A model generated the notes under the pieces. That model worked only from the letters and a program-made list of their open reading frames with translations. It ran no database searches and was not told the origin of the DNA. A DNA stretch of 64,000 bases from Calothrix sp. NIES-4101 (GTDB lineage Bacteria; Cyanobacteriota; Cyanobacteriia; Cyanobacteriales; Nostocaceae): positions 2,666,001 through 2,730,000 of the forward strand of contig AP018280.1 of NCBI GenBank assembly GCA_004296455.1, in the 5' to 3' direction. Positions within the stretch are counted from its first letter, which is position 1, and each line of letters starts with the position of its first letter. Below are positions 3,418-27,253 of the stretch, in pieces. The position numbers were made by a program, and so were the translations under genes.

Positions 3418-5037
3418 ATGTATCAAATGGAGGCAGCAGTACAAGCGGTAAGTCGTAGTTATGACATTATTTGTTTTGGTGATGAAGTACCTGGTATTCT
3501 GGCTTTAGTTTCTGCGGCAAGGGAATATTACCGCAGAACAGATAAATATCCCCGCAGTTTATTATTATTTAAAGGTAATTCTAAATATGGAATTGGTGGT
3601 CATTTAGTCCGTAGTCGGTTGGCATATTTAGAACGTTCATCAGTACCGGTAACAGTTCAACAAGAAAGACAATTAGATACATTTGGCGACGCACCAGCAA
3701 TTTACAGGGAATTTTTGCAAAAGTCGGGAGTCGAACAAATTGTAATTGATGCAAGTAAAGCTGATTTTGCACTGCGGGAGATGTTACGTGAAGTTGGTGC
3801 TGATATTCTTAGTCATGTGGAAATCAAATCGGTAGTCCAACAGGGACATAAAATCAGTGGGATTGAATTAACCAAGGGTGAAATTTACTTTGGCAAGCAG
3901 TTCATTGACTGCACTGTAAATGCAGAGTTAGCACAGTCAACCCTAGGAATTGGTAAATATAAAGGATTTGAGACGATTGGTTTGCCAAATTCGGAACTCT
4001 CGGTGACTTTGGTATTTGAAAGCCAAGGTTTAAGCGTCGAAAAGTTACAAAATATTGAGTATCAATACTTGAAACGATTTCTCAATCGTGAAGATAAGGA
4101 AGCTCAAGCTTTACTAAATATCGCTGCTGGAAATGATCCTAATTATGCCGAACAATTGAGGAAAGATTTAGTTGATAAAAAAGGTTATCTCAAAACGATC
4201 GCAGTTGGCAAAGATTTTCTTGATATTCGTTCTCCGGCACTATCAATTGCTTACCATGCTTTTCGCGGGACAAAATTTGATTTGACGACGAGTAAGAGTA
4301 TTTTCGATCATGGGAATGTGGCTCTTTTATCTCGCCAGCGCCTATCGTGGAATGCATTATTATTTGCTGTAAATGCCGATGAAGCCGAAATATTAGTGCG
4401 TGGGAAAGCTCAACCAACGCGAAAAATGCTTGATGAGATGCTATTTGTAGCTAGCTGGCTGCAATCACTTGGTGCGGGGGATGTGAAACCTGCGAAGGAA
4501 TTATATATTCGCCATGCGGGCAATATTACAAATGTTGTGGAACCTTTAACTGGTGCCAAAATGTTGACAGGAGGGGTGCCAGCAAACGAAGCTTTGGGTA
4601 CTTTTGGCTATCATTTTGATGTTGGAGGAGCTACGCAAGGTATCATCCAACGGGTGGAAGAATTTACTCAGAATCAGGGTTGTGCGAATCAAGGCTTTAG
4701 CAACTTAGCTTTTTTAACACCATCACTATTTAATATTGGGATTCAACATGCTTTGATGAAGTATGTACCCAATTTAGCCGTGGTTAGTCCTGGTTCTGGA
4801 TTTGAAGGATATGCTTGTTTTCCAGGTCGAATTGTTGAGTTTAATTGTGGTGTGGGACAAGGTGTGGGGATTGCTGTGGGAATTGCTCTCACTCAAGAGA
4901 GGGAACTTAACGAAGTCTCGAACAAGGAAGTCCGCGATGTTATGGAAGTTACGGGTATATTACCGCAAATATACGGGACAAGGAATGGAGTTGCAGCGAC
5001 TCAAGTTGGTGATTTTGAACATTCGAGGACAGCTTGA
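3418..5037 (+). CDS. FAD-dependent oxidoreductase
   Basis: The 539-residue protein opens with a degenerate Rossmann-type segment (YDIICFGDEVPGILALVSAA, about residues 15-34). It carries later segments typical of FAD-dependent oxidoreductases of the FAD_oxidored type: KFIDCTVNAELA-like text near 165 and GGVPANEALGTFGYHFDVGG near 385-405. The canonical GxGxxG is not clear, so cofactor binding is inferred from overall architecture. The substrate is unknown. The start has GGAGAA about eight bases upstream; an in-frame ATG at 3427 is less well placed. Its stop is only two bases from the stop of the convergent gene on the other strand. There is no signal peptide, so it is probably cytoplasmic. Confidence 0.65.
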   Translation: MYQMEAAVQAVSRSYDIICFGDEVPGILALVSAAREYYRRTDKYPRSLLLFKGNSKYGIGGHLVRSRLAYLERSSVPVTVQQERQLDTFGDAPAIYREFLQKSGVEQIVIDASKADFALREMLREVGADILSHVEIKSVVQQGHKISGIELTKGEIYFGKQFIDCTVNAELAQSTLGIGKYKGFETIGLPNSELSVTLVFESQGLSVEKLQNIEYQYLKRFLNREDKEAQALLNIAAGNDPNYAEQLRKDLVDKKGYLKTIAVGKDFLDIRSPALSIAYHAFRGTKFDLTTSKSIFDHGNVALLSRQRLSWNALLFAVNADEAEILVRGKAQPTRKMLDEMLFVASWLQSLGAGDVKPAKELYIRHAGNITNVVEPLTGAKMLTGGVPANEALGTFGYHFDVGGATQGIIQRVEEFTQNQGCANQGFSNLAFLTPSLFNIGIQHALMKYVPNLAVVSPGSGFEGYACFPGRIVEFNCGVGQGVGIAVGIALTQERELNEVSNKEVRDVMEVTGILPQIYGTRNGVAATQVGDFEHSRTA

Positions 5038-5039
5038 TA

Positions 5040-6374
5040 TCATCCCAATCGTTCCATAATACATTCCGCAATACGTTGTGCGGCACCTGGTTTGCCCATC
5101 CTTAATAAACCATTTTCAGCGATCGCATGTAGTTTATCGGGGTCAGCTAATAGATTTTTGACTTGTTTTCCCAGATTTTCGGCGCGTGGAACCAAAATGA
5201 CGGAATTACCTAAAAGACGGCTTTGGGCTTCTGCAAATACGGGATTAAATTGTGGCCCTTTTCCAGGTATCGTAAATGCTGGTTTGCCCAAACCTACAAA
5301 CTGTTCTGTTGCTGTTCCTGCCATGGCGATCGCAATATCTGCCATATGCAAACAGTCGTTATAAGCATTTTGTGCCAAGACGAAGTATGCATTTCTTTGT
5401 TTAAATGTCAAGGCTTTGTCATCAGAAAATTTCACAGGTAATTCGGCGATGGGGTGAGGTTTCCAGCCCTGGGATGTGACAAATTGAGCGAGAATATGAG
5501 AATCGAGATTAGGTGCGATCGCTCCTAAAAAAATCAGGATTTTGGAACCATGGGAAACAGGATTTCGTTCTAACATTGTTTCCATTAGGGATGAGACACC
5601 AATCATAATTTCTTCCCAGTTATCATAGGCTTCGGGAGTGCGGGAACCGGGTAACAATGTCACTACCAGGGGGCGAATTATTTCTTGATGTTCTGTATCC
5701 GTTGCATAAATGCGATGGGTAGGAAAAGAAGGTTGCAAATTATCCATCATCGGGTTACCTAAATCAAAAACAGGAACCCGCATTTCTTGTAATATTGTTG
5801 TTGTCAGAGAATCTCTAGGGAAAATAGCTTTGCAGCGCCGACGAGTCATTAACCACCTCTCCCAAGGATGGTAAATCGAACCGGAAAAGTTTTCCCAATA
5901 GGCACCTTTATTTGTTCGTTTCAACAATCCCCCATCGTCACGCACATAATATTCAGATTTCGCTGTCCCCACAAATGCATAATTAGCACCACTAATCGAT
6001 GCAAATAGCAATGGCAGAATATCCCCAACAGCTAAAACCGCACTGCGATTACCAGCTTGTTTTTGTGCCTTTACCCATTCTCTAGTTGTTTGAATTTGGT
6101 TGAGAGTTAGTTTGAGCAAACCCCCTTGGACATCCCGCATCAATTGTTGTCCGCCATCCATATAAATGAAGCCACCGGAAGGCATCGTTTTCACAGAACC
6201 AACAATGGGTATATTCAGTTCTTGATAAGCATATCCTTCCCCAACTAAAGGTAGTGCCGAAATTTTCGGGGAATTTTCTAATTGCAGTAATTCTTTCAAA
6301 ATTCTCACTGCAATCACATCCTCACCATGTCCGTTGCTTAATGTTAGTAGCTGCAATTGCGAAGTCATATTCAT
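5040..6374 (-). CDS. Lipid-A-disaccharide synthase-related glycosyltransferase
   Basis: The 444-residue product begins LLTLSNGHGEDVIAVRIL and contains MAGTATEQFVGLGKPAF (around 355-375) and GKGPQFNP. These mark the cyanobacterial family usually named lipid-A-disaccharide synthase-related protein, a GT-B fold relative of LpxB. It may use a nucleotide sugar, but the acceptor is unknown and a lipid A role is not implied by the resemblance. It is divergent from the Omp85 gene (249 bases to that gene's chosen start), which would fit an envelope role, and converges on the FAD oxidoreductase with a two-base gap that leaves no room for terminators. Confidence 0.8.
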   Translation of the reverse strand: MNMTSQLQLLTLSNGHGEDVIAVRILKELLQLENSPKISALPLVGEGYAYQELNIPIVGSVKTMPSGGFIYMDGGQQLMRDVQGGLLKLTLNQIQTTREWVKAQKQAGNRSAVLAVGDILPLLFASISGANYAFVGTAKSEYYVRDDGGLLKRTNKGAYWENFSGSIYHPWERWLMTRRRCKAIFPRDSLTTTILQEMRVPVFDLGNPMMDNLQPSFPTHRIYATDTEHQEIIRPLVVTLLPGSRTPEAYDNWEEIMIGVSSLMETMLERNPVSHGSKILIFLGAIAPNLDSHILAQFVTSQGWKPHPIAELPVKFSDDKALTFKQRNAYFVLAQNAYNDCLHMADIAIAMAGTATEQFVGLGKPAFTIPGKGPQFNPVFAEAQSRLLGNSVILVPRAENLGKQVKNLLADPDKLHAIAENGLLRMGKPGAAQRIAECIMERLG

Positions 6375-6622
6375 ACAAATAGAAGAAGGGAAAGAGAGAA
6401 TAGAAAAAATTTTGAGTTCCTAATTTTAGTCGAACTCACGTTTGATTAACAGTTAGCACTCTCCTGGGGATATGAAGAAACAAAAATACATAACTCACAG
6501 TCTCATTGGTTACGAGGAACGATAGATGGGGGAAAGAAAGGCTTGGTGTTGGAAGTTTAGTGTTATCCCCATTGCTTTTCCTTGGTACAACTAATTCCCG
6601 GATAAATCAGGCTAAATTTATT

Positions 6623-8881
6623 ATGCGAGTTGCTAAAGCTACAATTATGACACTCGCCAGTATTACTGCTGGCAATTTTTCTGAGTCGGTAATAGCTGCA
6701 CCGACAAATACTTCCACACCAACAAAAACTACTAATAACGTTGTTGTACCCGTAATTGAAGTTACTAGGCAACGGGTAGAGACAATTGCTCAACCAGAAA
6801 CCGTAGATGCACCTCAATTCTCCCAAAATACAGTCAATGTGCAAAGTCGTTCCAGCAATAATTCGACTGTAGTAGTTGGAAAAGACACAGCAAAAAGTGG
6901 AGAAGTGGAAAAAGCACCCGTACCCATTCCGGTACCGTCATTTTCTGCGGCGCGTGCAAAAGCTCCTGTACCAATTCCTGTTCCTGCCGTTGCTTCTCCT
7001 AGTTCCGCAAAATCAGCCACTGTCGCACAAGCTCCCATTTCCATCCCCGTCCCTGCCGTTGGTTCTCGTACTGCTGCTAAACCTGTAACACCAGTTAAAA
7101 AACCTACTCCCACCCCTGCCCCTGCTCCCCTACCCGCAATCAATGATGAAAATTTAGTTGTCCCTGCAATTGATATTCAAATAGTTGGCGCTAACCAGGA
7201 ACTACAAAATATCATTCGTGAAGTGATTAAAACTCAAGTAGGTGGAGAAACTAGCAAAGCCCAACTCCAGCAAGATGTAGCTGCAATATTAGACACCAAA
7301 TTATTTACCAGTGCGCGTGTAAATAGCACCACTACAAAAGATGGTTTGCGAGTTGTGTATCAAGTACAACCATTAGTTGTGCGATCGCTACAATTATCGG
7401 GAGCCAAGGCGCTGACGTATAAAGTTGCTCTCGAACCGTTCCAAAATCAAATCAATCAACCAGTTAGTCCAACTAGCTTACAAGAAGCAGTTAAAAAGAT
7501 AAATAAATGGTACAAAGATAACGGTTATAGTCTGGCAAGGGTAATTTCGATTTTGCCTGACAATCAAGGTATTTTGACAGTCAATGTTGCCGAAGGCTTA
7601 GTTAGCGACATCAAATTTAAATTTGTCAATGACAAGGGCGAGACGGTTGATACTCAGGGAAAACCTGTTGCTGGACGTACCAAAACCGACTTTATCCGCA
7701 AGCAATTGAAATTAAAATCCGGTGACATCTTTAAAGATGATGTTGTCCGCAAAGACGTGCAACAGTTATATGCTTCCGGTTTATTCGAGAGTGTAAATCT
7801 TACCCTCGAAGGTGATGCCACAAAAACTGATGTTGTCTACGAATTGAAAGAAACAGGGGCGCGCTCAATTAATGTAGGTGGTAGCTACAATGCAGATCAA
7901 GGTATTTTAGGGACTTTAAATTACCAAGATCGAAATGTTGGTGGTATTAATGATACTTTGAGTGCGAACGTCCAAGTTGGCAGACGGGATTTCCTCTTTG
8001 ATAGTACCTTTAATAGTCCTTACCGGATTACCGACCCTAACCGCAACGGTTATGCTATCAACATTTTCCGCAAACGGGGACTGTCAGAAGTCTTCGATGG
8101 TGATCTTAAATTAGCAAATGGCGATCGCATTCGTGAAGGTAAAATTGGCGGTAGTGTTAGTTTCCAACGTCCTATTGATGACTGGGATGCTTCATTAGGA
8201 TTTAATTATACCAGGGTGAGTATGCGCGATCGAGATGGTAATATCTCCTCCCAAGATGAACAGGGTAATCCCCTCACCCTCAGTAAAACAGGTATTGACG
8301 ACCTGGCAACAGTCTCATTTACAGCGACAAAAGACGATCGCGACAACCCCTTAAATCCCACCAACGGTTCGATTCTCAAACTCAGCACCGAGCAATCAGT
8401 TCCCCTTGGTAACGGAAATATCTCCATGAACCGTCTCCAAGCCAATTACAGCCAATACACACCCGTCCAAGTGTATAAGAGTAAACAACCTCAAGTCTTC
8501 GCTCTCAATGTTCAAGCTGGAACAGTTTTAGGAGATTTACCGCCTTACGAAGCCTTTAATATCGGTGGCCCCAACTCAGTACGTGGTTATGGCTCTGGTG
8601 ATGTCGCTAGCGCTCGTACCTACGTATTAGCATCCGCAGAATACCGTTTTCCCATCCTCCAAGCCTTGGGTGGTGTAGTCTTTGCCGATTTGGGGTCAGA
8701 CTTAGGTTCTGGGGATACAGTCACAGGGAACCCTGCCGGAGTTCGTAACAAGCCAGGAATTGGTTTTGGTTACGGTGCAGGTATTCGATTTGACTCTCCT
8801 CTGGGCTTACTCCGTGCCGATTATGGGATTAATGACCAAGGAGAAAGTCGCTTGCACTTTGGCATTGGGCAACGATTTTAG
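6623..8881 (+). CDS. bamA: Outer-membrane assembly factor, Omp85/BamA family
   Basis: This is a surface-barrel protein that would insert outer-membrane proteins. After a signal-like N-terminus (MRVAKATIMTLASITAG, possible cleavage after SVIAA) comes a proline-rich linker with three PVPIPVP- or PISIPVP-type units. Three POTRA-like domains follow, then a C-terminal barrel with the lid motif GGPNSVRGYGSGD and a final aromatic residue (GQRF). Three POTRA domains are normal for cyanobacterial Omp85. The start is uncertain. ATG 6623 gives the best signal peptide (752 residues). GTG 6560 has GGAAG four bases upstream, and the frame is open from TTG 6506. The proline-rich linker between signal and POTRA domains may span peptidoglycan (inference). 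Confidence 0.87.
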   Translation: MRVAKATIMTLASITAGNFSESVIAAPTNTSTPTKTTNNVVVPVIEVTRQRVETIAQPETVDAPQFSQNTVNVQSRSSNNSTVVVGKDTAKSGEVEKAPVPIPVPSFSAARAKAPVPIPVPAVASPSSAKSATVAQAPISIPVPAVGSRTAAKPVTPVKKPTPTPAPAPLPAINDENLVVPAIDIQIVGANQELQNIIREVIKTQVGGETSKAQLQQDVAAILDTKLFTSARVNSTTTKDGLRVVYQVQPLVVRSLQLSGAKALTYKVALEPFQNQINQPVSPTSLQEAVKKINKWYKDNGYSLARVISILPDNQGILTVNVAEGLVSDIKFKFVNDKGETVDTQGKPVAGRTKTDFIRKQLKLKSGDIFKDDVVRKDVQQLYASGLFESVNLTLEGDATKTDVVYELKETGARSINVGGSYNADQGILGTLNYQDRNVGGINDTLSANVQVGRRDFLFDSTFNSPYRITDPNRNGYAINIFRKRGLSEVFDGDLKLANGDRIREGKIGGSVSFQRPIDDWDASLGFNYTRVSMRDRDGNISSQDEQGNPLTLSKTGIDDLATVSFTATKDDRDNPLNPTNGSILKLSTEQSVPLGNGNISMNRLQANYSQYTPVQVYKSKQPQVFALNVQAGTVLGDLPPYEAFNIGGPNSVRGYGSGDVASARTYVLASAEYRFPILQALGGVVFADLGSDLGSGDTVTGNPAGVRNKPGIGFGYGAGIRFDSPLGLLRADYGINDQGESRLHFGIGQRF

Positions 8882-16403: not shown

Positions 16404-17993
16404 ATGATTTTGTGCATCAATCCTAATTGTAATCAACCAAACAATTCTCAAGAAAACCGTTTTTGCGGTAATTGTGGTTCAGAATTACTTCTCTCTGGGA
16501 GATATCAGGTAATTCAACAAATTAATCAGCATAGTTATAACAGTAATTCACACTGTAAGTATGAAGTTCGCGAAGTTGGTAATGAGACAGTCAAATATCT
16601 GCAAACTTTGACATCGAATGATTCGCAAGAAATTGAGCATTTTCACAAAACATCTGAAGTTTTAAAGCAATTAAATCATCCTGGTTTACCAAAAGTAGAA
16701 GTTGATGGTTGCTTTATTTATTTTCCCCGCGATAAAGCAACACCTTTACATTGTTTAGTCATTGAAAAAATCACTGGTTTAAATTTAGATGATTATATAT
16801 CGAGCCACTCTTCAACAGAGCCGGCGAATCAAGCTTTAGATGACAAATTAGCAATTAACTGGTTGCAACAAATTGTAGAAATATTACAACAAATTCACAG
16901 CCATGATTTATTACATTTGCAGATTCAGCCAGTAAATATTATACTCCAAAACAATGGAAATTTAGGGCTTGTGGGCTTTGGAGAACCACAGATAAATAAA
17001 CAAGTACAATTTATTGCTGCTTATACTCCACCGGAACAGATCAATAATAATGCCGTACCTCAATCTGATTTTTTTGCTTTAGGACGCACCTTTGCTTTTC
17101 TTTTAACCGGAAAATCTCCTCTATCTCATCTCGAACTTTACGAACCTAGTTTCAACAATACAAGCTTAGATAATGTAAATTCAAATTATACTAATTTTCA
17201 GAATAGTTGGCAAAGCCATAATACTAAAATCTCAGCAAAAATAATTAATTTACTCAATGCAATGATGTCTCCCGTACCAAGGGAACGTCCTCAAAGTGCA
17301 CAGGAAATATTGCGAGTTTTAGCAGAATTAAATGCAACTGCAACCCCTTTAACGGTATCACAAACCAATCTGAATCCATCTATTTTATTACCGCGTAAAA
17401 ATAGATTTTCGTGGAGTTTTTTGTTTGTATGGATAATTGCGATCGCATCCTGTGGTACTATTGGAGGCTTTATTGGTTTTGTGGGTGGTTTTCTGGCAGA
17501 ATTTATTCTGGGTGCAGTTTTCAAAAATATCACTGTTGGTTTTATTTTTGGTGGGGCAATATTTGGGCTAATTACTGGAATTGGTATTGGATTAGCACAA
17601 AGTATATTACTACGACAGAGTGATTTTAAACTACGCTGGTGGTTTTTGGTAACAGTTTTGGGATTTATATTTGAAGGTATTTTGAGTGTTTTTAACGGCA
17701 GTTATGGAACTGAAAATAAGTTATTTCTTATCCCAGGTTTAGCCGTGGGGATTTGTCAATGGTTAGTGTTGCAGCGATATCTACATATACAAACTGCTTT
17801 TTGGTGGATATTGGCGAGCGTTGCTGGTGGTGGTGTCGCTGTGGGAATTAATAAAGCAGTAAATTATTATTTAAGTAATACTTATAGTATTGCCGGTATT
17901 GTCTTGGGGTTATTTGGTTTTGCACTTGTTACAGGTATCGTTTTACAATTTTTATTGATGCGATCGCATTTAAATACTTCAGGTAGAGCGTAA
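16404..17993 (+). CDS. Zinc-ribbon pseudokinase with multipass membrane domain
   Basis: The 529-residue protein has an N-terminal zinc ribbon (C4, C9, C21, C24), a Ser/Thr-kinase-like domain (about 33-310) and a C-terminal glycine-rich membrane region with roughly six spans (333-525). The kinase is degenerate. The HRDxKxxN position reads HLQIQPVN (Q173 for the catalytic Asp, Q175 for Lys), and DFG reads GFG (191-193). A candidate VAIK lysine is K64, and the asparagine N178 is kept. Catalysis is unlikely, so a scaffold or ligand-binding role is inferred. A broken relative of its zinc ribbon starts 93 bases downstream. Kinases with this zinc ribbon are common in filamentous cyanobacteria. Confidence 0.8.
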   Translation: MILCINPNCNQPNNSQENRFCGNCGSELLLSGRYQVIQQINQHSYNSNSHCKYEVREVGNETVKYLQTLTSNDSQEIEHFHKTSEVLKQLNHPGLPKVEVDGCFIYFPRDKATPLHCLVIEKITGLNLDDYISSHSSTEPANQALDDKLAINWLQQIVEILQQIHSHDLLHLQIQPVNIILQNNGNLGLVGFGEPQINKQVQFIAAYTPPEQINNNAVPQSDFFALGRTFAFLLTGKSPLSHLELYEPSFNNTSLDNVNSNYTNFQNSWQSHNTKISAKIINLLNAMMSPVPRERPQSAQEILRVLAELNATATPLTVSQTNLNPSILLPRKNRFSWSFLFVWIIAIASCGTIGGFIGFVGGFLAEFILGAVFKNITVGFIFGGAIFGLITGIGIGLAQSILLRQSDFKLRWWFLVTVLGFIFEGILSVFNGSYGTENKLFLIPGLAVGICQWLVLQRYLHIQTAFWWILASVAGGGVAVGINKAVNYYLSNTYSIAGIVLGLFGFALVTGIVLQFLLMRSHLNTSGRA

Positions 17994-18086: not shown

Positions 18087-18302
18087 ATGAGTCTGTGCAT
18101 AAATCCTAGCTGCCAAAAGCCTTTAAATCCAGATAATATTCTTTATTGCCAAAGCTGTGATTCGGAATTACTACTTTATCTGTTCTTATATTCTCCCAGA
18201 ACTTGTATATCTTCCAAAAGTGGATGCTCCCAAATATCAATAAAACTGAAACAAAGATTGGTAATTAATGACCATCAGTTAACAAATTATAAGCATCATT
18301 AA
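18087..18302 (+). pseudogene. Remnant of a zinc-ribbon kinase gene
   Basis: The frame begins MSLCINPSCQKPLNPDNIL and keeps the four-cysteine ribbon ending DSELLL (residues 1-30), as in the preceding pseudokinase, then turns into unrelated sequence. Another frame over about 18190-18245 reads PELVYLPKVDAPKYQ and stops; LPKV also occurs in the intact neighbour, so a frameshifted kinase fragment is likely. The 3' end overlaps the convergent dynamin-J gene by 38 bases. It is best read as a decayed tandem duplicate rather than a working gene. Confidence 0.55.
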
Positions 18303-20526
18303 TTAAATGCATTTTTTCTTGTGCTTGCTTTAATTGCTGAGGATTACTAACAAATAAATCAGGATGCCATTGTTTAACTAATTTTCTATATGCTTGTTTA
18401 ATTGCATCAATTGATGCATTATTGGGCAACCCTAAGAGTTTATAAGCGCGATTTCTTTTCTCAATATCAATTTGTTTTTGGGGTTGCTGGCTTGAAGTTT
18501 GATTAGATGTATTTGTATTTTGTTGTTGACGCTTTTGGTATCCAGAAGCACCCATTTCTGCTTTCATTTTGGCAATTTCCTGATCAATTTCCCAATTACG
18601 GAAATTTGCATCTATGACATCAAAATTAGATCGTTTAGAATAAGTGTTGCGAGCATGAGACTGAGAAGCAGAATTAGTATTATTTGTTGATATTTTTGCT
18701 TGTGTTTGCGGCTCTTGAGCTTGTGTTGCCGTTGCTTTGTTTTGGACTTCCACAACTCTTTTAGTCCCCACATCTTCTTTGACACCAACTCCTTGAGAGC
18801 GATATACAAATTGCTGATTTTTTGGTGTTTCTATTTCAACTTTAAATTCATTGGGAATAGAAATACTGAAATAACTTTCTAATTGTTTATTTAAATCAAT
18901 CAAGCAACTTTGCCATTTCTGTAACTCTTGGCGTTTTTGAATAATATCTAAAGAATCAGAATTTTCAACAAATTTAATTACCCGTTCCGATTTGCGATCG
19001 CACTCTGCTAATATTGATAGTCCCTGACGGCTAAACTCGCTTAAATACTCGTCAACCGCATCAAGGCATAATGTTGCTACTTGCTGATGATAGGATTCCT
19101 TTGATGATTTCTCATCTTGTTTTTGGATGTTTTTATTAACTAGGTAAGAAATGCTGCCTAAAACTGCTGCACCTAAGGGGCCACCTAAAACCCAACCGAT
19201 GCCGCTACCAACAGCAAGTGAGCCAGGTTCACTTAAATCACCAGAATTAGTATTTCGAGGAGGTAAAGTAACTTGGGGATGTTTAGGAAAAGGTATTAAT
19301 AAATCCTCTGGTCTTTCATTTTGAAAAAAATCATATGCTTGATATAACCACTTAGCGACTGCTTGCTGTAATGGCTGTAAATCCTTTTTTAAATTTTGCT
19401 GTTCCCAATCAGAAAAGTTATCCTGTGCTAATGCGATTGCAGCATCACCTTGATATTTTTCACGTAAGTTAGCTAAAGATAGCCATTGACGTAATTTAGT
19501 TGTGCTTGCAGAGAATCCTTGTTGAATTAAATCTGCGGCTTTTCTTTTGATTTCATTGGCAGCATTATTTTTATCATTAATTTTTTGCACTTCATGTTGA
19601 ATCGGACTAATTTTATCTTTTAATGCTGTTTGCAGTTTGAAAGCAAGGGCTTGTACTCTTGGTTTACTTACTGCTTGATTATTTTGTTTTAAAATTAGAG
19701 CAATATTTTGTAATGCAGTTTCAAACTCAACTAAACCGCTTATATTTGCTGCTGCAACATCACCTTTAAGTCTCGCGCGTAAGGCAGGTAATGCATCAAC
19801 TCGATATAAATTGCTAAAACCTGAAGGTAATTCAGCCCGAAAACTTTCAGCAACAAACCGTAATCTATTTTGAACTTCTTTTTGTTCTTCTGGTTCTAAT
19901 AAATTAATAAAATTAGCTACAAAAATAACTGTTTTAATTCCTCGATCTAATAACCAGTCACGCAGGTTTTCTCGTTCTCCTAAAGTCATGAGCTTGCGTG
20001 CATCTAGTAATTGCACTACTAAATCAGCACTCAATAATTGCTCTCTAACCAAGTTATCCTGTGCTTCCCGGTCATTTGTACCCGGTAAATCGAGAAATTC
20101 AATCCCCGTTTCTAAAAATGAATGGGGATAAAATACTTCAACAGATGCCACATCATCTCGCATTCTCCGATTCTGATCAAGAATGGCAAATTGCTTTAAA
20201 ATATCAGTACCACTACGATGTATTTCACTACCATTAGCAAGCATGATTCGAGTTCTAATATCACTACCATATCTAACAGTAATTGCGGCTCCGGTACTGG
20301 GGATTAAATCAATTGGTAAGGTTTTACTACCTAACATGGCATTTAACAAAGTTGATTTGCCATGATTAAAAGGCCCAAAGACTGCAATACGAAAATTAGG
20401 ATTATTTAGATAGTTACAAACTGCTAATATATCTTGATGTAATGACGATTTTCTATTTAAATCAAGTAATTTAGATGTATTTTTTAGTAGTTCTATAACG
20501 GATTGGTAGTTTTTATAGTTTTGCAT
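18265..20526 (-). CDS. Dynamin-like GTPase with C-terminal J domain
   Basis: The 753-residue protein has a dynamin-type GTPase domain: P-loop GPFNHGKS (51-58), switch threonine region PSTGAA (76-81) and DLPG (146-149). Helical stalk regions follow, with a glycine-rich hydrophobic segment (about 433-463) that could be a membrane paddle. A Gln/Thr/Ser-rich linker (590-685) leads to a J domain (690-750) with the HPD motif at 721-723. J domains stimulate DnaK/Hsp70 ATPase, so this protein could recruit Hsp70 to a membrane-remodelling GTPase; that is inference. The base-specificity motif is atypical (VANFIN). It lies 164 bases downstream of the BDLP gene on the same strand and may be part of that transcription unit. 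Confidence 0.85.
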   Translation of the reverse strand: MQNYKNYQSVIELLKNTSKLLDLNRKSSLHQDILAVCNYLNNPNFRIAVFGPFNHGKSTLLNAMLGSKTLPIDLIPSTGAAITVRYGSDIRTRIMLANGSEIHRSGTDILKQFAILDQNRRMRDDVASVEVFYPHSFLETGIEFLDLPGTNDREAQDNLVREQLLSADLVVQLLDARKLMTLGERENLRDWLLDRGIKTVIFVANFINLLEPEEQKEVQNRLRFVAESFRAELPSGFSNLYRVDALPALRARLKGDVAAANISGLVEFETALQNIALILKQNNQAVSKPRVQALAFKLQTALKDKISPIQHEVQKINDKNNAANEIKRKAADLIQQGFSASTTKLRQWLSLANLREKYQGDAAIALAQDNFSDWEQQNLKKDLQPLQQAVAKWLYQAYDFFQNERPEDLLIPFPKHPQVTLPPRNTNSGDLSEPGSLAVGSGIGWVLGGPLGAAVLGSISYLVNKNIQKQDEKSSKESYHQQVATLCLDAVDEYLSEFSRQGLSILAECDRKSERVIKFVENSDSLDIIQKRQELQKWQSCLIDLNKQLESYFSISIPNEFKVEIETPKNQQFVYRSQGVGVKEDVGTKRVVEVQNKATATQAQEPQTQAKISTNNTNSASQSHARNTYSKRSNFDVIDANFRNWEIDQEIAKMKAEMGASGYQKRQQQNTNTSNQTSSQQPQKQIDIEKRNRAYKLLGLPNNASIDAIKQAYRKLVKQWHPDLFVSNPQQLKQAQEKMHLINDAYNLLTDGH

Positions 20527-20637
20527 ATTCCCTAATTTTGATAATTTTGTTTATAGTTATTTATGATGCGATCGCAACTGACTATATATATTTTTTATTG
20601 AATAAATAAATGCTGTTTATTTTTGTTTATATCTTTG

Positions 20638-20665
20638 TATCCCCGACTTATCGAAGTCGAGGATA
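20638..20665. repeat. TATCCCC hairpin, copy 2
   Basis: TATCCCCGACTT (20638-20649) pairs with AAGTCGAGGATA (20654-20665) across ATCG. It lies 25 bases beyond the BDLP stop, between the two dynamin genes, and could uncouple their expression. Confidence 0.75.
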
Positions 20666-20690
20666 TTTATTGGAGGGTTTTGATGAGTTA

Positions 20691-22772
20691 CTAACTGTAA
20701 TAAACTAACAGGTTATTGTAAGCTGTCTCAATAGTTTGTAACTCAGCAAATACATCAGTTTCTAACTTATGCAAGCGTTTTAATTCATTTTCACGACTAA
20801 TTTCGTGATTTTCCTTTTGCTTAAGTAAATTATCTAATTCAGATTTCCGTGATTGGATATCATCATTAATTCTGAGACTCACTTCACGCTCGTAAGCATC
20901 AAAACATTCCTTAACTGCATCATAAACAGTCTTAGATTGCTCATTGGCAACTTTTGGCAAATATTTAACTAACTCTTTCTTAGCAGTTTTGACTAACTCC
21001 TTTCTGGCTTGATCGGCTTGCAAAAATCCCACACCTAAGCCCAGTAAGGGAATAGCAATTGGCCCCAAAATCGGAGTTACTAATGTTCCTAATAAAGCAC
21101 TAATTCCAAAAACTGTAAAGTAGTTAAGTAAGATACTTTTCCAATCAAATCCTGCACCCGCCATTGCAAAGCCAGCTAAATTTCCTCGTGAGAGAGAGAA
21201 CAAACCCATTGCCCATTTTGCCCAACCAGGAGAATGATCTTCTTCACTAGAAATATTGGCATTGACTCGAACTTTTTCACCTGTGAGTTTTTCAGTGATT
21301 TGGTTGGTAATTTGACTGTAGGAATTACCGTACTTGGCTGCACTGCTAGAAAGTTTTGCAAAAGCTGCATTAATATCTTTTTCTGCGGTTAAACTCCAAG
21401 CGGCAAATTTATCAGTGACATATTGTTCAAATGCTTTTTGCAGCGCCAAGTTAAATGCTTCCCGTTTGCCACTGCTGAGGAAGTCCAGCATATTTAACTC
21501 TGGTTGGTAGCGAAGAAAATCGGTTTCAAAGGTATCGCCCAATTTCAATACATAGCTGCGGAATGACTCAGATATTCCATGCGCTTGGTTATCCCGTGTT
21601 TGCAGAATTTCGGTTTTGAATTGGTCGCGAATATTGGTAAGCTTGTTAAATTCGGGTTCGACTGAATTGATACGCGATCGCAATTCTTCCACTCCCTTTT
21701 CTAATAAAGGTATCCGTCTTTGAATTGCTTCTTTGGTGTTGTTTCCTACTTGACGGGCTAAGGTTCGCACCTGTCGCAACTCCGCTACAGCCCGTTCACG
21801 AGTCAGAAAAATATTTAATGCACTCATAAATTCAGGAAAACCCGTCCCCTCTAAGTCTGCTTGGGGATTTTTTAAACGCTTGCGAAGTGCTTGAATTGAG
21901 GACAGTTCAAAAACTCGTTCATTGTAAATATTTTGACCATCAACTATGCAGTATTCGCTGAGGTTAGCTTGGAAAACTTTCCGTAAACGTGCCTCTGAAT
22001 CGCGTAATTCTTCATCATCATCTGGATCAATTAATGCTTCTTTGACTTGATCCCAGGCATTAATTAAAAAGAATACCGATAAACCCCGACCTTTAATATA
22101 ATTTTCTAAATATCTTCTTTCTCCTAAAGTGCAGGGTTGTGATGCACGTAAGACAAAGAGAATTGCATGACAATTATTAATATAACCTAGTGATAATTCA
22201 TTCCGTGCTTCGGTATCATTTAAACCAGGACTATCAACAATTTCAATACCTTTTTCTAGTAATGCTAAGGGATATTCCACGATTGCATGACTGACATCAG
22301 GAAAAGCTGGCTTATTATCTTGTTCTAATCTTTTTGCTTCCGCCGGATCAATAGTATATTTATGTTTAAATTCATCAAACCCCATATCTTGAGGAGATTT
22401 ACTATCATTGAAATATACTGTGACTTTTTTCTGGGAACCATAACGTAATACAGTTAACAGTGCAGTACAGGGGTTGACATCACTAGGTAAAATTTTCTCA
22501 CCAATTAAAGCATTTAAAAATGTGCTTTTACCCCGTTTCATATCGCCCAAAACCATGAGACGAAATACACCACTGCGGAGGTTTTTACTAGCGATCCGCA
22601 TATCTTCAATATCGCGCTCTAAACTGAGTTTTCCAGAACTATTACCACCAGCAATTTCGGCTGCATTAATAGTATCGGCAATTTGATTTAGCGATACTGC
22701 AACTTCGGTACGAACTTGAACAACACGCTCTAAATCATTAATAAAACTATCTGTTCCAAATTTACCTGTCAT
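20691..22772 (-). CDS. Bacterial dynamin-like protein (BDLP)
   Basis: At 693 residues it has the same length as the structurally characterised BDLP of Nostoc punctiforme, and its sequence closely follows that protein from memory. Motifs are the P-loop GDMKRGKS (76-83), the conserved threonine in NPCTALL, DSPG (180-183) and NAWD (238-241). The lipid-binding paddle is a hydrophobic segment at about 547-585. Such proteins bind GTP, polymerise on membranes and tubulate lipid. The start has AGGA about nine bases upstream. A small coiled-coil membrane protein gene precedes it (42-base gap) and the J-domain dynamin follows, suggesting a three-gene membrane module. Confidence 0.93.
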   Translation of the reverse strand: MTGKFGTDSFINDLERVVQVRTEVAVSLNQIADTINAAEIAGGNSSGKLSLERDIEDMRIASKNLRSGVFRLMVLGDMKRGKSTFLNALIGEKILPSDVNPCTALLTVLRYGSQKKVTVYFNDSKSPQDMGFDEFKHKYTIDPAEAKRLEQDNKPAFPDVSHAIVEYPLALLEKGIEIVDSPGLNDTEARNELSLGYINNCHAILFVLRASQPCTLGERRYLENYIKGRGLSVFFLINAWDQVKEALIDPDDDEELRDSEARLRKVFQANLSEYCIVDGQNIYNERVFELSSIQALRKRLKNPQADLEGTGFPEFMSALNIFLTRERAVAELRQVRTLARQVGNNTKEAIQRRIPLLEKGVEELRSRINSVEPEFNKLTNIRDQFKTEILQTRDNQAHGISESFRSYVLKLGDTFETDFLRYQPELNMLDFLSSGKREAFNLALQKAFEQYVTDKFAAWSLTAEKDINAAFAKLSSSAAKYGNSYSQITNQITEKLTGEKVRVNANISSEEDHSPGWAKWAMGLFSLSRGNLAGFAMAGAGFDWKSILLNYFTVFGISALLGTLVTPILGPIAIPLLGLGVGFLQADQARKELVKTAKKELVKYLPKVANEQSKTVYDAVKECFDAYEREVSLRINDDIQSRKSELDNLLKQKENHEISRENELKRLHKLETDVFAELQTIETAYNNLLVYYS

Positions 22773-22814
22773 GCACTTTATTCCTAATACCTACTAAAAT
22801 ATATGTTTGACAAA

Positions 22815-23132
22815 CTACTTTTTCTTTTCCAGAAATAATTTATAAGCCGCAAATGCTAATGCTCCAATAATAAATATATTGGCAAATACAGATGCCACTC
22901 TCACTGCAATCAAGGCAACAACACCTAAGCCAAATAATTTCAATCCGAGAACTGCTTTACCTTTCCATAACTGTCCCTTTACTTCCTCTTTTACTTTTTT
23001 TGTTTGATAAAATTGAATATCTTTTTGGTTGACTTCTGAATCTAGTTCTTTTAACCGTAATTCGGTTTCCTTTTGCCGAAGCTCTCTTTCGAGACGCTGT
23101 AATTCTTGTTCACGTTCCTCTGGCGATTTCAT
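22815..23132 (-). CDS. Coiled-coil protein with C-terminal membrane hairpin
   Basis: From ATG 23132 the protein has 105 residues. A highly charged coiled coil (1-60; ERELRQKETELRLKELDSE) is followed by two hydrophobic stretches (about 65-100) and a lysine tail. It ends 42 bases before the BDLP start on the same strand, so it is probably the first gene of the dynamin cluster. A tethering or adaptor role for the dynamins is possible, not shown. The frame is open to 23189; I prefer 23132 because GGGG precedes it and the extra residues lack character. The family is not recognised. Confidence 0.65.
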   Translation of the reverse strand: MKSPEEREQELQRLERELRQKETELRLKELDSEVNQKDIQFYQTKKVKEEVKGQLWKGKAVLGLKLFGLGVVALIAVRVASVFANIFIIGALAFAAYKLFLEKKK

Positions 23133-23524
23133 CCCGCTAACCCCACTTTGGATTATGAAATTGTCACAGTCATCAAATCTTACATTCAAACCTTAATTAC
23201 ATGTAAATTAACGCACTGATAAAAATTTTTCCATCAGTGCAAATACGGCTTAAATTCTTGACACCTGGCAATTTTTACTAGAAGATAGATACCAATAAAT
23301 AAATTTATGTTCCGGAAATCTTACCAAGATTGATTAATTATTCGCACAGAATCTGACCCTAATTTTTAGATTAGGTTCACCGAAATATCTACTATCACGG
23401 CAATGTAGCAATACATAACTGTTGCTTATGTCAGATTGGTCTAAAGCTTACTTAACTTACTGATAACATCTAAGTTTTTGATGGAGCTTCGCGATATACG
23501 ATCGCATCTATACCTAAAATGACC
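23133..23524. other. Intergenic region between dynamin cluster and hybrid kinase
   Basis: No gene or clear hairpin is seen. It should hold the promoter of the leftward dynamin cluster and the 3' end of the leftward kinase operon. Confidence 0.5.
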
Positions 23525-25522
23525 CTAGGATAACCCTGTAATCTTAGTAATTCTAGTAATTAAATCACTGGGTTCAAAAGGCTTAGAAATATATTCATGA
23601 AAACCAGCATTTAAAGCTTGAGCGCAATCTTCTTCATGAGAACATGCTGTTAAAGCGATCGCTGGAATTTTTTGTCCAGTTTCTACTGGTAAAGTGCGTA
23701 TTTTTTTGATTAAGGTGTAACCATCTTCCCCCGGCATACAAATATCACTAATTAATACGTCCGGTTGAATTTCTTGGAATACGGCGAATGCTTCATCAGC
23801 AGATGTTACAGCAGTTACATTTGCACCTTGTTGTTGGATGAAAAAGGAAAGAAAATTACGATTATCAACTTCGTCATCTACAATCAAAATTCGCAGTCCC
23901 GCCAGGGGAAGGGAAGCAGAGGAAGATGAGGAAGTATTTCCAGAGTTTAAGTGATTATGTTTGTTTTGTAAAACTGGTAATTTCACGGTGAAAGTAGCAC
24001 CCTGTCCGGTTCCGAGACTAAATGCACTGATGCTACCTTTATGTAGTTCGACTAAATGATGAACGATCGCTAGTCCTAAGCCTAATCCATTTTGCGATCG
24101 CGTTGTTGAGCTATCGGCTTGACGAAAACGTTCAAATACTTTGGGTAAAAATTCTGGTTCAATCCCAATACCTGTATCTCTAACTGCTATTTCTACCCAG
24201 GATGTTTCCGCTCTTTTTAAAGTTACTTCGACCTTACCATTTTTGGGTGTAAATTTAATGGCATTAGTTAATAAATTCGAGATAACTTGCTGCAAGCGAA
24301 CGGCATCTCCACTAACTTTGCCAACATTTGTATCTAAGCAGATATCTAATTGCAGATTTTTCATCTCTGCTTGCGGGCGCACTGCATCTAAAGCAGCTGT
24401 AATGATCATCTGTAAATCGACAACACCTAAATTTAACCGCAATTGACCCCTGATAATTCGTGATACATCAAGAATATCTTCAATTAATTGCGTTTGCGCG
24501 ATCGCATTCCGTTCAATGGCATCTAAAGCGCGAGATGTACCTTGTTCATCTAATTTTTTCGTGCGTAAGATTTTTGACCATCCCAGCATTGCTGTCAAGG
24601 GGGTACGCAGTTCATGGGAAAGAATAGCTAGAAACTCATCTTTCATTTGATTTGCAGCTTCTGCTTCCTGTCTTGCCGCTTGTTCGCGGAACATTTGAGC
24701 GCGAGTTTCTTCCGCATTCTTCTGGTCGGTAATGTCTTCTATAGTACCGACATGGCCTTGAATACTACCATCAGTTGCTAGCATTGGTGTACAACGAACC
24801 CGGAGCCAACGTACAATATCCTCTGGAAATAAAAACCGAAATTCCTGAGTATACTCTTTACCTTGATTGAGATAATTTGACCAACTAGTCGTTGCAGCGT
24901 CTTTGTCATCTGCTTTTACAAACTCTAACCAGCTTTTATCTAAAGATTCGGCTGCCGTGACATGACAAATCGCTTGATAACGGGGATTTGTATATGTGCA
25001 GTTCCCTTGGGAATCAATTTCAAAAATACCTACAGGAGAAGAGGTGCTCAAAGAACGAAATCTTTCTTCACTTTGCTTTAGTTCCGAATTTAAGATCGCC
25101 AGTTGCTGAGCTTGTAGCTTTAATACTTCGGATTTTTTGTATAATTCAACAAATATTTTCACTTTTGAAGTTAGGATATGCTGATCTATTGGTTTAAGTA
25201 AATAATCTACCGCACCCGCAGCATAACCTTTAAACTGCATATTATCGTCCGTACTAAAAGCAGTTAGGAAAATGATCGGAGTTTGGCGCGATTTCTGACG
25301 ACTGCGTATTAATGAGGCGGCTTCAAAACCATCCATCCCAGGCATTTGTACGTCCAGCAAAATTACCGCAAAATCTTGGTATAGCAAATACCGCAAAGCC
25401 TCCTCCCCAGAAGTCGCTTGCACTAGATTTTCTTCTAAGTCTGCCAAAATCACCTTTAGTGCTAACAAATTTTCTGGTTTATCATCCACCAGGAGGATAT
25501 TTACTTTGCTTTCAGCCTGCAT
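23525..25522 (-). CDS. Hybrid histidine kinase (REC-PAS-HK-REC)
   Basis: This 665-residue cytoplasmic kinase has a receiver at 7-125 (phosphate acceptor D57 in LLDVQMPG), a short coiled link, a PAS/PAC domain (about 153-270), HisKA with H303 (LSHELRTPL), an ATPase domain (405-515; DTGIGIEPEF, GLGLAIV) and a second receiver (543-663; D593). It would receive phosphate input at the first receiver and relay to its own C-terminal receiver. It is the last gene of a cheR-cheB-kinase operon, five bases after the methylesterase gene, so methylation-type signalling probably feeds it. No transmembrane segment is present. Confidence 0.92.
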   Translation of the reverse strand: MQAESKVNILLVDDKPENLLALKVILADLEENLVQATSGEEALRYLLYQDFAVILLDVQMPGMDGFEAASLIRSRQKSRQTPIIFLTAFSTDDNMQFKGYAAGAVDYLLKPIDQHILTSKVKIFVELYKKSEVLKLQAQQLAILNSELKQSEERFRSLSTSSPVGIFEIDSQGNCTYTNPRYQAICHVTAAESLDKSWLEFVKADDKDAATTSWSNYLNQGKEYTQEFRFLFPEDIVRWLRVRCTPMLATDGSIQGHVGTIEDITDQKNAEETRAQMFREQAARQEAEAANQMKDEFLAILSHELRTPLTAMLGWSKILRTKKLDEQGTSRALDAIERNAIAQTQLIEDILDVSRIIRGQLRLNLGVVDLQMIITAALDAVRPQAEMKNLQLDICLDTNVGKVSGDAVRLQQVISNLLTNAIKFTPKNGKVEVTLKRAETSWVEIAVRDTGIGIEPEFLPKVFERFRQADSSTTRSQNGLGLGLAIVHHLVELHKGSISAFSLGTGQGATFTVKLPVLQNKHNHLNSGNTSSSSSASLPLAGLRILIVDDEVDNRNFLSFFIQQQGANVTAVTSADEAFAVFQEIQPDVLISDICMPGEDGYTLIKKIRTLPVETGQKIPAIALTACSHEEDCAQALNAGFHEYISKPFEPSDLITRITKITGLS

Positions 25523-25527
25523 GAGTT

Positions 25528-26106
25528 TTATTTTCCTATAGAGTCACAAAGCTTAGCCAGTACCAAGGCTATCTCTTCTAGCGGTAAAATCCAGTCTACC
25601 CCAGTCACAGCAGCAATTGCAGCTTTGGGCATGACAGCACATTCTGCTGTGGTTGGTTCTTGAACAATTGCAATTCCTCCTCGCACTTTTATCGCCTGTA
25701 AACCCCGGCTACCATCTTCATTGGCTCCTGTCAAAATCACACCAATCACTTGCTTGCCATAAACATCAGCAGTAGATTCAAATAGTACATCAATTGACGG
25801 TCGAGCGTAAGAAACTGGTTTATCAATCGAAAGGGCAAAATGACCTGGTTCTACAAGTAAATGATAATCAGCAGGACTGAGGTAGACGTAACCAGGTTGA
25901 ATCTTGTCTTTGTCTTCAACTTCTCGAACTGACAAAGGCGTATATTGTTGCAAAAAATCCCTCAACGTCGTGTCGTTAGAATCAGGATGACGATGTTGCA
26001 CGATCGCGATCGGTACTCCAATGTCTTCTGGTATATTTTCTAGCATTTTTTTGAGCGCCAACAATCCTCCCAAAGACGTACCCACAACGATAATTTCAAA
26101 AGCCAT
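25528..26106 (-). CDS. cheB: Stand-alone CheB-type methylesterase domain
   Basis: The 192-residue protein is only the catalytic domain of CheB. The Ser-His-Asp triad candidates are S11 (VVGTSLGG), H38 or H40 (QHRHPDS) and D131 (TGANEDG). The receiver domain that normally gates CheB is absent, so control must come from elsewhere, perhaps from the receiver domains of the hybrid kinase immediately downstream. The start overlaps the cheR stop as TAATG, a sign of translational coupling. No chemoreceptor gene is in the window, so this is likely a non-chemotaxis sensory set. The activity is inferred from the motifs. Confidence 0.9.
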   Translation of the reverse strand: MAFEIIVVGTSLGGLLALKKMLENIPEDIGVPIAIVQHRHPDSNDTTLRDFLQQYTPLSVREVEDKDKIQPGYVYLSPADYHLLVEPGHFALSIDKPVSYARPSIDVLFESTADVYGKQVIGVILTGANEDGSRGLQAIKVRGGIAIVQEPTTAECAVMPKAAIAAVTGVDWILPLEEIALVLAKLCDSIGK

Positions 26107-26936
26107 TAGTTAACCCTCCGATAGAGCTTTTCTCTTTTGACAAGCTCTTTATATTCATGCTCGTGAGGAGTAAAACTGATTGACTCTTGCTTACCTAAGC
26201 CAAGAATACCAAAGGAACAAAGGCTGTGGTAAAAAAGCTCGTGCACGCGACTTTGCAAAGTTTGATTAAAGTAAATGAGGACGTTGCGGCAAATAATTAC
26301 ATGAAATTCATTAAAAGAATTATCAATGGCTAAATTATGTTGAGCAAAGATAATATTCTCCCGTAGATAAGGACTGAAAATTGCATGATCATAAGCCGCA
26401 GTATAGTATTCGGAAAAGGATTTTTTACCACCAGCTTGAATGTAAAGTCGGGTATAGTTTTGCATTAATTTCAGAGAAAAAATCCCACGTCTCGCTGTTT
26501 GCAAAACTTGTTCATTTAAGTCAGTTGCATAAATTCGACAACGCTGATATAGCCCTTCTTCTGTGAGTAAAATAGCCATTGAATAGACTTCTTCCCCACT
26601 AGAACATCCAGCGTGCCAAATGCGAATAAATGGGTAGGTACGTAATATGGGAATAACTTCATTTCTAAAAGCTAAATAAAAATTAGGGTCGCGAAACATT
26701 GATGTCACATTGACTGTCAAACCTAATAAAAATTTGTTAAAGTAGAGTCTATCGGATAATATATTTTTTTGCAGTTGAGAAATACTAGATAATCCTTCAG
26801 CGTAAATAAAACTCTGAATCCGGCGTTTGAGTGAAGAGGGGGCATAATTACGGAAATCATGACCCCAGAAAGTATAAATTTCTTCAATTAGTGACTGAAC
26901 TTCAATATCTTCAAAAGTTTGTTGTGGCACAATCAT
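26106..26936 (-). CDS. cheR: CheR-type SAM-dependent methyltransferase
   Basis: From ATG 26936 the protein has 276 residues. The N-terminal helical domain (about 10-70; FWGHDFRNYAPSSLKRRI) and the SAM-binding region (IWHAGCSSGEEVYSMAI) are typical of CheR glutamate methyltransferases, and CRNVLIYF is the family's later motif. It would methylate glutamates of a receptor or kinase input domain. It is the first gene of the cheR-cheB-hybrid kinase operon and shares one base with cheB. The frame is open upstream to 26999, but the additional residues are hydrophobic and unlike the family. Confidence 0.9.
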   Translation of the reverse strand: MIVPQQTFEDIEVQSLIEEIYTFWGHDFRNYAPSSLKRRIQSFIYAEGLSSISQLQKNILSDRLYFNKFLLGLTVNVTSMFRDPNFYLAFRNEVIPILRTYPFIRIWHAGCSSGEEVYSMAILLTEEGLYQRCRIYATDLNEQVLQTARRGIFSLKLMQNYTRLYIQAGGKKSFSEYYTAAYDHAIFSPYLRENIIFAQHNLAIDNSFNEFHVIICRNVLIYFNQTLQSRVHELFYHSLCSFGILGLGKQESISFTPHEHEYKELVKREKLYRRVN

Positions 26937-27253
26937 AATACTTATGTAAAAACAAATAAAAATCTCTGATAAAAAGCTTGAACAAAAATATTGGATCAAG
27001 AAATGACTTCGTACTCAGTAGTCAGTATTGAAACATGACTTACCTAGTTGTGGTATATCAGTCTCTGTTTTTGAGTGAATTAACCGCAAGTAGACAAAGA
27101 TAAATTCATGATTTTTGTGATAAATTTCATGGGTAATAGGGCATAACATTTATTTTATGCCCTAGTTAAACCCTAGCTAAACATTTCTAATTCAATATTG
27201 AGTGAAGAGTCAATTTTTAATCAAGAAACTCGATTCAAATGATGTAGTTGAAC
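26937..27253. other. Intergenic region with a perfect hairpin
   Basis: There is no gene. TAGGGCATAA (27137-27146) pairs with TTATGCCCTA (27155-27164). It lies about 90 bases beyond the stop of the leftward GH13 gene and may mark its transcript end, although no clear T-run follows on either strand. Confidence 0.5.

Follow-up and report, generated by a model that had tools for sequence, protein, structure and literature searches.

The window analysed here is a stretch of 64,000 nucleotides from the cyanobacterium Calothrix sp. NIES-4101 (contig AP018280.1, positions 2,666,001 to 2,730,000). Its minus strand holds, at positions 18265-23132, three consecutive open reading frames (ORFs), which encode a coiled-coil protein (CC), an orthologue of the bacterial dynamin-like protein BDLP1, and a second dynamin-like protein (DLP) that carries a C-terminal J domain (DLP-J). 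Here we report that the J domain occurs with this cluster in two forms, fused to the DLP in the Nostoc family, to which the window belongs, and encoded by a gene of its own directly behind the DLP in three other families. The three genes of the window are the following.

22815-23132, minus strand: CC, first gene of the cluster, with a coiled-coil N-terminus and a hydrophobic C-terminal helix (ORF, homologues upstream of BDLP1, AlphaFold).
20691-22772, minus strand: BDLP1 orthologue, a Tandem B dynamin-like protein with the G4 motif NAWD (PF00350, PF21808, PDB 2J68).
18265-20526, minus strand: DLP-J, a Tandem A dynamin-like protein with a C-terminal J module (PF00350, PF00226, AlphaFold, Foldseek).

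CC and BDLP1 are separated by 42 base pairs (bp), BDLP1 and DLP-J by 164 bp. The product of 20691-22772 is a Tandem B, BDLP1-type dynamin. It comprises 693 amino acids (aa), matches Dynamin_N (PF00350, 1.8e-33) and all 373 positions of the bacterial-dynamin helical domain PF21808 (4.4e-175) in Pfam, and aligns over residues 2-693 to the crystallised Nostoc BDLP1 (PDB 2J68/2J69/2W6D) with 1193 bits. DLP-J, 753 aa in length, matches Dynamin_N over residues 47-205 (5e-25) and, unlike the BDLP1 orthologue, is not matched by PF21808. AlphaFold models its dynamin body mostly with confidence, and the best fold matches of the model in Foldseek are BDLP, IniA, mitofusins and Cj-DLP1/2; since the whole-model alignments have a large root-mean-square deviation, the family assignment alone is used. 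DLP-J is a Tandem A DLP, a divergent second dynamin beside a Tandem B gene, as in 82 of the 83 fused loci described below. CC has 105 aa counted from ATG (124 aa from an alternative TTG at 23189), and no Pfam, NCBIfam or PADLOC profile matches it. It is predicted as a single helix (residues 4-104), of which the hydrophobic part (residues 61-100) is modelled with a predicted local distance difference test score (pLDDT) of about 90 and the coiled-coil part less confidently. A preliminary description of the window had named a BDLP-type dynamin and a second dynamin-like GTPase fused to a J domain with intact HPD, on one strand with a coiled-coil membrane protein; three consecutive genes, two of them with the expected profile matches, were indeed found there.

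The J module and the linker that carries it comprise four features of DLP-J.

18268-18483, minus strand: J domain, residues 682-753 (PF00226; pLDDT mostly 82-91).
18358-18366, minus strand: HPD tripeptide, residues 721-723, kept in 83 of 83 fused loci and 11 of 11 separate J genes.
18484-18822, minus strand: linker between dynamin body and J domain, residues 569-681, disordered on either side of the motif helix (AlphaFold pLDDT; ratio of non-synonymous to synonymous substitution rates, dN/dS).
18541-18627, minus strand: conserved helix motif, residues 634-662, with the core FRNWEIDQEIAKMK, common to the C-terminus of TIGR04376 (fused loci, NCBIfam, hhalign; helix of low confidence in AlphaFold).

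DnaJ (PF00226) matches residues 694-751 with 3.9e-15 and 56.1 bits against a cut-off of 27.8. DLP-J possesses the J fold, the HPD tripeptide and a basic helix II, the stretch before HPD reading YRKLVKQW (YRRLARKY in the long DnaJ of the same genome). Between seven pairs the dN/dS of the J domain is 0.07-0.26, indicating purifying selection within the noise of such short stretches. The linker gave 0.22-0.76 in six pairs, one pair yielding no value, and lay above the J domain in all six, once barely. The intact HPD of all 83 fused loci and the low dN/dS agree with the earlier impression of a functional-looking J domain. Because the model combines a disordered linker (pLDDT below 50 at residues 569-645 and 660-681) with a confident J domain, the latter may be tethered at the neck end of DLP-J and free to reach into the cytosol. 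Judged by its sequence, the J module probably recruits DnaK.

The distribution of the cluster was assessed on two scales. A phylum-wide draw of 244 genomes contained a DLP orthologue above 500 bits in 20; because all 20 carry BDLP1, which was found (1e-60) in 22 of the 244, the gene order is beyond chance (hypergeometric P = 2e-27 for co-occurrence, phylogeny uncorrected). The two BDLP1 genomes without a DLP orthologue are G048, with a truncated BDLP1 and CC, and G170 (our handles begin with G for genomes, L for fetched loci and f for families). Within the window's family, 129 of 217 genomes gave a DLP match at 1e-40 or better, some of these being fragments or paralogues. The cluster is carried by many filamentous cyanobacteria. 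Among the loci examined, 83 are fused and encode 80 distinct proteins, a few genomes being counted twice via two collections. BDLP1 lies upstream on the same strand in 82 of them, the exception (L132) beginning at a contig end, and its frame is shortened in L150, L153, L178 and L193. Both CC and BDLP1 lie upstream in 78, one of the five exceptions being a contig end; CC homologues also precede BDLP1 in nine of 11 split loci and in many clusters without a J. Median gaps in the fused loci are 14 bp from CC to BDLP1 and 157 bp (up to 2275 bp) from BDLP1 to DLP-J. The nearest relatives of the window's DLP-J, among the best 80 of 210 loci encoding a relative, are those of Calothrix elsteri (74% identity) and a Calothrix metagenome-assembled genome (86% in the best segment). 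This survey confirms two expectations of the preliminary description, namely that the three genes form a conserved cluster and that they co-occur.

The second form of the cluster emerged when 388 genomes of the order were searched with the L060 protein, a fusion of CC and J described below, and small J genes turned up about 7 kilobases (kb) from CC. Of the fetched loci, 11 (L283-L293) from three families have a J-less DLP whose immediate 3' neighbour on the same strand is a separate J gene. They comprise seven genomes of one genus in f17 (L283-L289), two genomes in f46 (L290, L291) and two in f3 (L292, L293). The gene order in f17 and f46 is CC, BDLP1, BDLP1, DLP and J, in some loci BDLP1 and DLP being about 1 kb apart with an unrelated ORF in between; in f3 it is BDLP1, DLP and J, and CC was not found. 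The gap from DLP to J measures 71-79 bp in seven loci, 167 and 176 bp in two and 4 bp in one, and there is one 4-bp overlap, in L292, where the DLP stop and the J start share the letters ATGA. The HPD tripeptide is present in all 11 J genes. In an earlier module search, the G062 protein had matched nothing outside the window's family but its own sequence and, over J alone, two others. That one lineage has the module fused to the DLP and three others have it next door provides independent support for its working with this DLP. As far as sequence can tell, the split form strengthens the link between cluster and J and independently supports the view that DnaK recruitment belongs to the system. 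The best explanation is, in our view, a heterotypic dynamin system of the BDLP1 type that brings its own recruiter of Hsp70 (DnaK), probably to remodel or recycle the assembly, and we give it about even odds.

The J domain might instead serve mainly as an assembly domain that dimerises DLP-J with BDLP1, DnaK being secondary or irrelevant, a role raised by Liu et al. 2018. Its flexible tether in the AlphaFold model would allow this, and the assembly domain of Campylobacter jejuni DLP1 is required for the DLP1/2 tetramer (PMC6104087; this and the other papers are cited from those parts of their text that were available). However, the HPD tripeptide is kept in every fused locus examined, as it is in the separately encoded J proteins of the split clusters, and pairs without a J exist, so that J is not required wherever the pair occurs. 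We regard a mainly structural J domain as improbable.

The fusion itself can be traced in a tree of the DLP body with 47 rows, including 18 of the 83 fused loci. All 18 fused rows form one clade with 100/100 support, so that a single fusion explains the data. The split rows stand in three places with J-less rows between them, and the DLP tree does not decide between a separate J gene that is ancestral and was then lost and one that joined several times. In a J-domain tree of 38 rows and 72 columns, from which five J matches of the window's own genome and one other were left out, the J domains of the cluster (fused, split and orphan) lie on one side with weak support (73/93). Since this support is modest, it is the helix motif, more than the tree, that speaks for fused and split modules having a common origin.

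The motif stands directly ahead of the J domain in 83 of 83 fused loci. A pattern drawn from these proteins occurs in 100 of 6432 ORFs, every one of them a J-module ORF; because of how the pattern was made, only its absence elsewhere is informative, and the set then lacked TIGR04376 loci. Residues 589-658 of DLP-J (2e-7) and residues 4-25 of the free J protein of L284 (2e-4) are matched by the NCBIfam family TIGR04376, whose proteins have the same motif at their C-terminus; among the matches listed for six further J proteins at 0.01, only the fused CC and J ORF appears (0.0064). A hidden Markov model (HMM) of the motif alone, run on 6454 ORFs, found below 1e-3 221 J-ORF matches, seven TIGR04376 proteins (5e-8 to 5e-4; their loci had been fetched on purpose), one truncated DLP-J and nothing else. 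Comparison of the J module with TIGR04376 by hhalign gave 94.4% (E 9e-8) in an alignment of 30 columns that reaches the C-terminal end of TIGR04376, and a control comparison with CC gave 2%. That the motif is common to the J module and TIGR04376 thus appears well supported by these profile comparisons, and within the ORFs searched it is otherwise found only at the TIGR04376 C-terminus.

TIGR04376 is present in seven of seven cyanobacteria tested and, among 14 controls, only in Synechococcus elongatus. No paper naming it was found in a search of the open-access literature. As encoded at L354 (1498-2097 of that locus), L348, L349 and L351, it is a cyanobacterial family with a distant likeness to Vipp1/PspA. 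Among solved structures it comes closest to Vipp1/PspA (0.002-0.15, along almost its entire length), with small designed proteins at 0.04-0.45 also among the 11 matches, and a relation of TIGR04376 to Vipp1 may be taken as a lead. Two related assignments were rejected. The motif itself is not recognisable as a Vipp1 relative, a PDB search to E 10 giving 22 short matches, mostly coiled-coil, and no Vipp1. Neither DLP-J nor the J protein belongs to the PspA/Vipp1 (ESCRT-III) family, as PF04012 does not match them and what they have in common with TIGR04376 is a tail motif of about 30 residues.

These relations raise the possibility that the J module brings DnaK to a PspA/Vipp1-like polymer and not to the dynamins. 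The motif would then mimic the C-terminal helix of TIGR04376, dock on a polymer of this kind and tie the dynamin pair to an ESCRT-III-type system and to DnaK. The hhalign result with its CC control and the narrow range of the motif HMM speak for it, as do the PDB matches of TIGR04376, and Vipp1 of Synechocystis binds DnaK2 and, following high light, is purified together with DnaK2 and DnaK3 (PMC4297356). Against it, the motif alone reaches no Vipp1, the TIGR04376 matches to Vipp1 are weak and have designed proteins among them, and PF04012 matches one of four TIGR04376 proteins, below cut-off. TIGR04376 itself is found at 0.01 in three of the eight J proteins scanned, among the matches listed; the seven loci of the HMM set were chosen; and the motif may have arisen by convergence or have a different binding partner. 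We judge a polymer as the target of DnaK to be unlikely.

A profile of the whole module (A6) gave a full match in 25 genomes of a phylum draw of 386 (at least 119 bits; the next match has 83.5). Twenty-two of these modules, the window's among them, come from the window's family and sit in frames as long as DLP-J (713-791 aa). The others are a 268-aa frame of G153, also from this family, and the modules of G062 and G454 outside it. In G153 (L060, 4884-5690) the CC frame runs on into the J module, and neither dynamin gene is left; as a single case this fusion could be chance. An intact-looking DLP-J is present in four of the 16 genomes of that genus, the others having CC with remnants (G103, G064, G048) or nothing that was found. 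A J module that outlives both dynamins, and the disordered tether of DLP-J, would fit a system in which the dynamin body merely anchors DnaK at membranes for the folding or repair of unrelated clients under stress. Membrane-tethered J proteins exist elsewhere. Against such an anchor, BDLP1 is retained beside DLP-J in 82 of 83 loci, and the fusion of CC and J was seen once, in a genus most of whose genomes are without an intact cluster, so that we find this explanation doubtful.

Several observations weigh against a dynamin system with a built-in recruiter of DnaK. Outside the Nostoc family there are 22 DLP ORFs without a J, and no J was found beside them. The matches listed for 21 genomes that have genes of the cluster but no adjoining J (a DLP lies in the fetched stretch of 16) include no full module anywhere; the best match in these genomes has 85.5 bits and covers the J part only, and five of five positive controls were recovered. 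CC and two BDLP1 genes occur with no DLP in the fetched stretch in G492, G572, G596 and G479, and BDLP1 occurs alone in G170; in G060 the DLP and the CC-BDLP1 pair lie on different contigs, and no BDLP1 turned up within 6 kb in L201. Conversely, the modules of G062 and G454 are orphans with no dynamin adjoining. In DLP-J itself HPD is followed by L-F, where the long DnaJ of the genome has HPDVN, and none of the six HSP70 (PF00012) matches in the window's genome lies near the cluster. The core of the cluster can do without J, whatever J adds.

The 42 non-fused DLP ORFs consist of the 11 split ones, the 22 J-less ones of other families, four paralogues and five that are interrupted or at a contig end (L145, L185, L187, L189, L202). 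Among the 22, L194/L297 and L198/L302 look like the same genomes, and L199 and L194/L297 have a contig end no farther than about 120 bp away. The four paralogues (L251, at 3807-7969, and L252, L253 and L254) belong to Nostoc-family genomes with a second, J-less DLP beside another BDLP-like gene. Together with the 22 J-less ORFs, these four clusters rule out a J in all orthologues. The supposition that J is conserved in orthologues thus stands for all 83 fused loci of the window's family and fails beyond it, where J is a separate gene or none was found.

Other variants of the cluster were seen on the way. In two Nostoc-family assemblies the DLP-J frame is interrupted (L145, 1246-3462; L189, 6001-8297) and the J part is a separate open frame. 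A tandem pair of BDLP1-type genes occurs outside the Nostoc family in L283-L291, L051, L052, L299, L302 and L303, and the fetched stretch of L303, L305, L307 and L301 contains no following DLP. An additional hydrophobic protein of 179-196 aa is encoded in four clusters of other families that lack J. These proteins resemble one another, and their genes lie either between BDLP1 and DLP or immediately ahead of DLP, at these locus positions.

L297, 5064-5603: extra hydrophobic protein.
L302, 10833-11372: extra hydrophobic protein.
L299, 6319-6909: extra hydrophobic protein.
L201, 5398-5946: extra hydrophobic protein.

The dynamin body of DLP-J has three further features.

19909-20391, minus strand: GTPase domain, residues 46-206, with P-loop GPFNHGKST and DLPG intact (Pfam, motif inspection).
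19903-19914, minus strand: G4, residues 205-208, NFIN in place of NxxD (aligned DLP ORFs).
19126-19206, minus strand: hydrophobic helical stretch, residues 441-467, GIGWVLGGPLGAAVLGSISYLV, a candidate membrane-binding tip (conserved; helices of low confidence in AlphaFold).

With respect to the hallmarks of the dynamin superfamily, DLP-J has the P-loop and DxPG and lacks the guanine G4, [NT]xxD. The P-loop lysine is present in all 125 DLP ORFs and DLPG in 124. By aligned count, the fourth position of G4 is N in 125 of 125 DLP ORFs (120 distinct); of the 146 BDLP1 ORFs that could be read there, 144 have D. Exchange of the G4 aspartate for asparagine (NKxD to NKxN) is known to shift specificity away from GTP. 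The invariant NxxN points to an altered nucleotide specificity, and DLP-J may not be a standard GTPase. From this change one would expect one of the two dynamins to depart from the usual use of GTP.

Both dynamins are matched weakly by the LeoA profiles of PADLOC (5.6e-12 and 5.6e-15), and DynA of Bacillus subtilis delays phage lysis (PMC9950537), which might suggest an anti-phage or LeoABC-type system. The LeoA matches are, however, partial, as a shared dynamin fold would give, the DLP cluster is distributed clade by clade in the DLP-body tree, and no evident defence gene occurs among the ORFs of 14-28 kb, the part of the window searched for defence. A role in defence is highly improbable in our view. 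Membership in LeoABC as defined by PADLOC was rejected, the LeoA match being partial and weak for DLP-J, weak for BDLP1 and absent for CC.

Upstream of the cluster, at 23525-26999 on the minus strand, lie genes which, named from their translations, we take to encode a hybrid histidine kinase and CheB-like and CheR-like proteins. On its other side, a 71-aa ORF on the plus strand (18087-18302) is 32% like the N-terminus of the adjoining Ser/Thr kinase-like gene (16404-17993) and is possibly a partial duplicate. A promoter scan gave 16 sites against a shuffle mean of 22.0, and terminator-like sites numbered seven against 3.8; this result is not used.

How a dynamin system with a built-in recruiter of DnaK might operate can be outlined. 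CC, by its place in the order and its predicted hydrophobic helix, would be the membrane-embedded member that places or anchors the dynamins. BDLP1 and the DLP would co-assemble on the membrane, as their co-occurrence and the example of Cj-DLP1/2 suggest, BDLP1 as the conventional GTPase and the DLP as a partner whose invariant NxxN G4 may alter nucleotide specificity. The J domain, tethered or as a separate protein, would recruit and stimulate DnaK, in keeping with its HPD, basic helix II and purifying selection. DnaK could then free or rebuild the assembled proteins after remodelling, by analogy with Hsc70/auxilin and Hsp70/CDJ2. Whether DnaK acts on the dynamin assembly itself is, in our estimation, an even call. 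The mechanism suggested in the preliminary description, in which Hsp70 drives assembly or disassembly of the coat, is plausible and now better supported. BDLP1 is a model bacterial dynamin, and control and release of its coat would become testable with known proteins.

A bolder version, which we think rather unlikely, would make the motif-plus-J module an adaptor that joins the heterotypic dynamin pair, DnaK and a PspA/Vipp1-like polymer (TIGR04376), the tail motif of which it would copy. The module would have begun as the last gene of the cluster and been fused once, in the Nostoc family, and DnaK would pass on or remove assemblies of dynamin and of ESCRT-III type where membranes are damaged. 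If the motif did bind a Vipp1-like polymer, dynamin, Hsp70 and ESCRT-III-type membrane maintenance would be connected in photosynthetic bacteria.

The system is closest to BDLP1 of Nostoc punctiforme and its neighbour B2IZD2, which are the same two genes. Liu, Noel and Low 2018 noted a DnaJ-like domain at the C-terminus of B2IZD2 and proposed DnaK binding and/or assembly (PMC6104087). Jilly et al. 2018 placed the BDLP1 clade as Tandem B and its neighbour as Tandem A and suggested hetero-oligomers; the term 'DnaJ' is absent from the main text of that paper, which also describes, apart from these, a clade of cyanobacterial DLPs termed 'chaperone', whose genes are followed by one for a DnaK-domain protein (PMC5827413). 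The preliminary description was therefore mistaken in taking the arrangement to be undescribed; the pair and the J domain were already in print. The comparative evidence (split J gene, TIGR04376 motif, single fused clade, NxxN G4) and the CC gene are not reported for BDLP1 and B2IZD2 in the available parts of these papers. The split gene, the motif and the G4 change were likewise not found in the open-access literature, by searches that named neither G4 nor a split gene and extended to neither subscription journals nor supplements. Reviews call the cellular role of BDLP1 unclear (PMC9950537, PMC5827413).

C. jejuni DLP1/DLP2 (5OWV, 5OXF) resemble the present pair in their side-by-side dynamin genes and as fold matches in Foldseek; they differ in their 12-17% identity (Foldseek) and in that no J domain is mentioned in the text available. 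LeoABC is a bacterial dynamin operon with a weak PADLOC match, but the match is partial and CC has none. To our knowledge, a J domain is not part of LeoABC. The working analogy is with J proteins that direct Hsp70 to a coat or polymer. Auxilin, together with Hsc70, releases the clathrin coat. HSP70B-CDJ2 acts on VIPP1 (PMC7350238, PMC13051332), chloroplast Hsp70 and CDJ2 being described in Vipp1 homeostasis and disassembly (PMC13051332). Unlike in these two systems, the J domain is here covalently part of a dynamin or encoded together with one.

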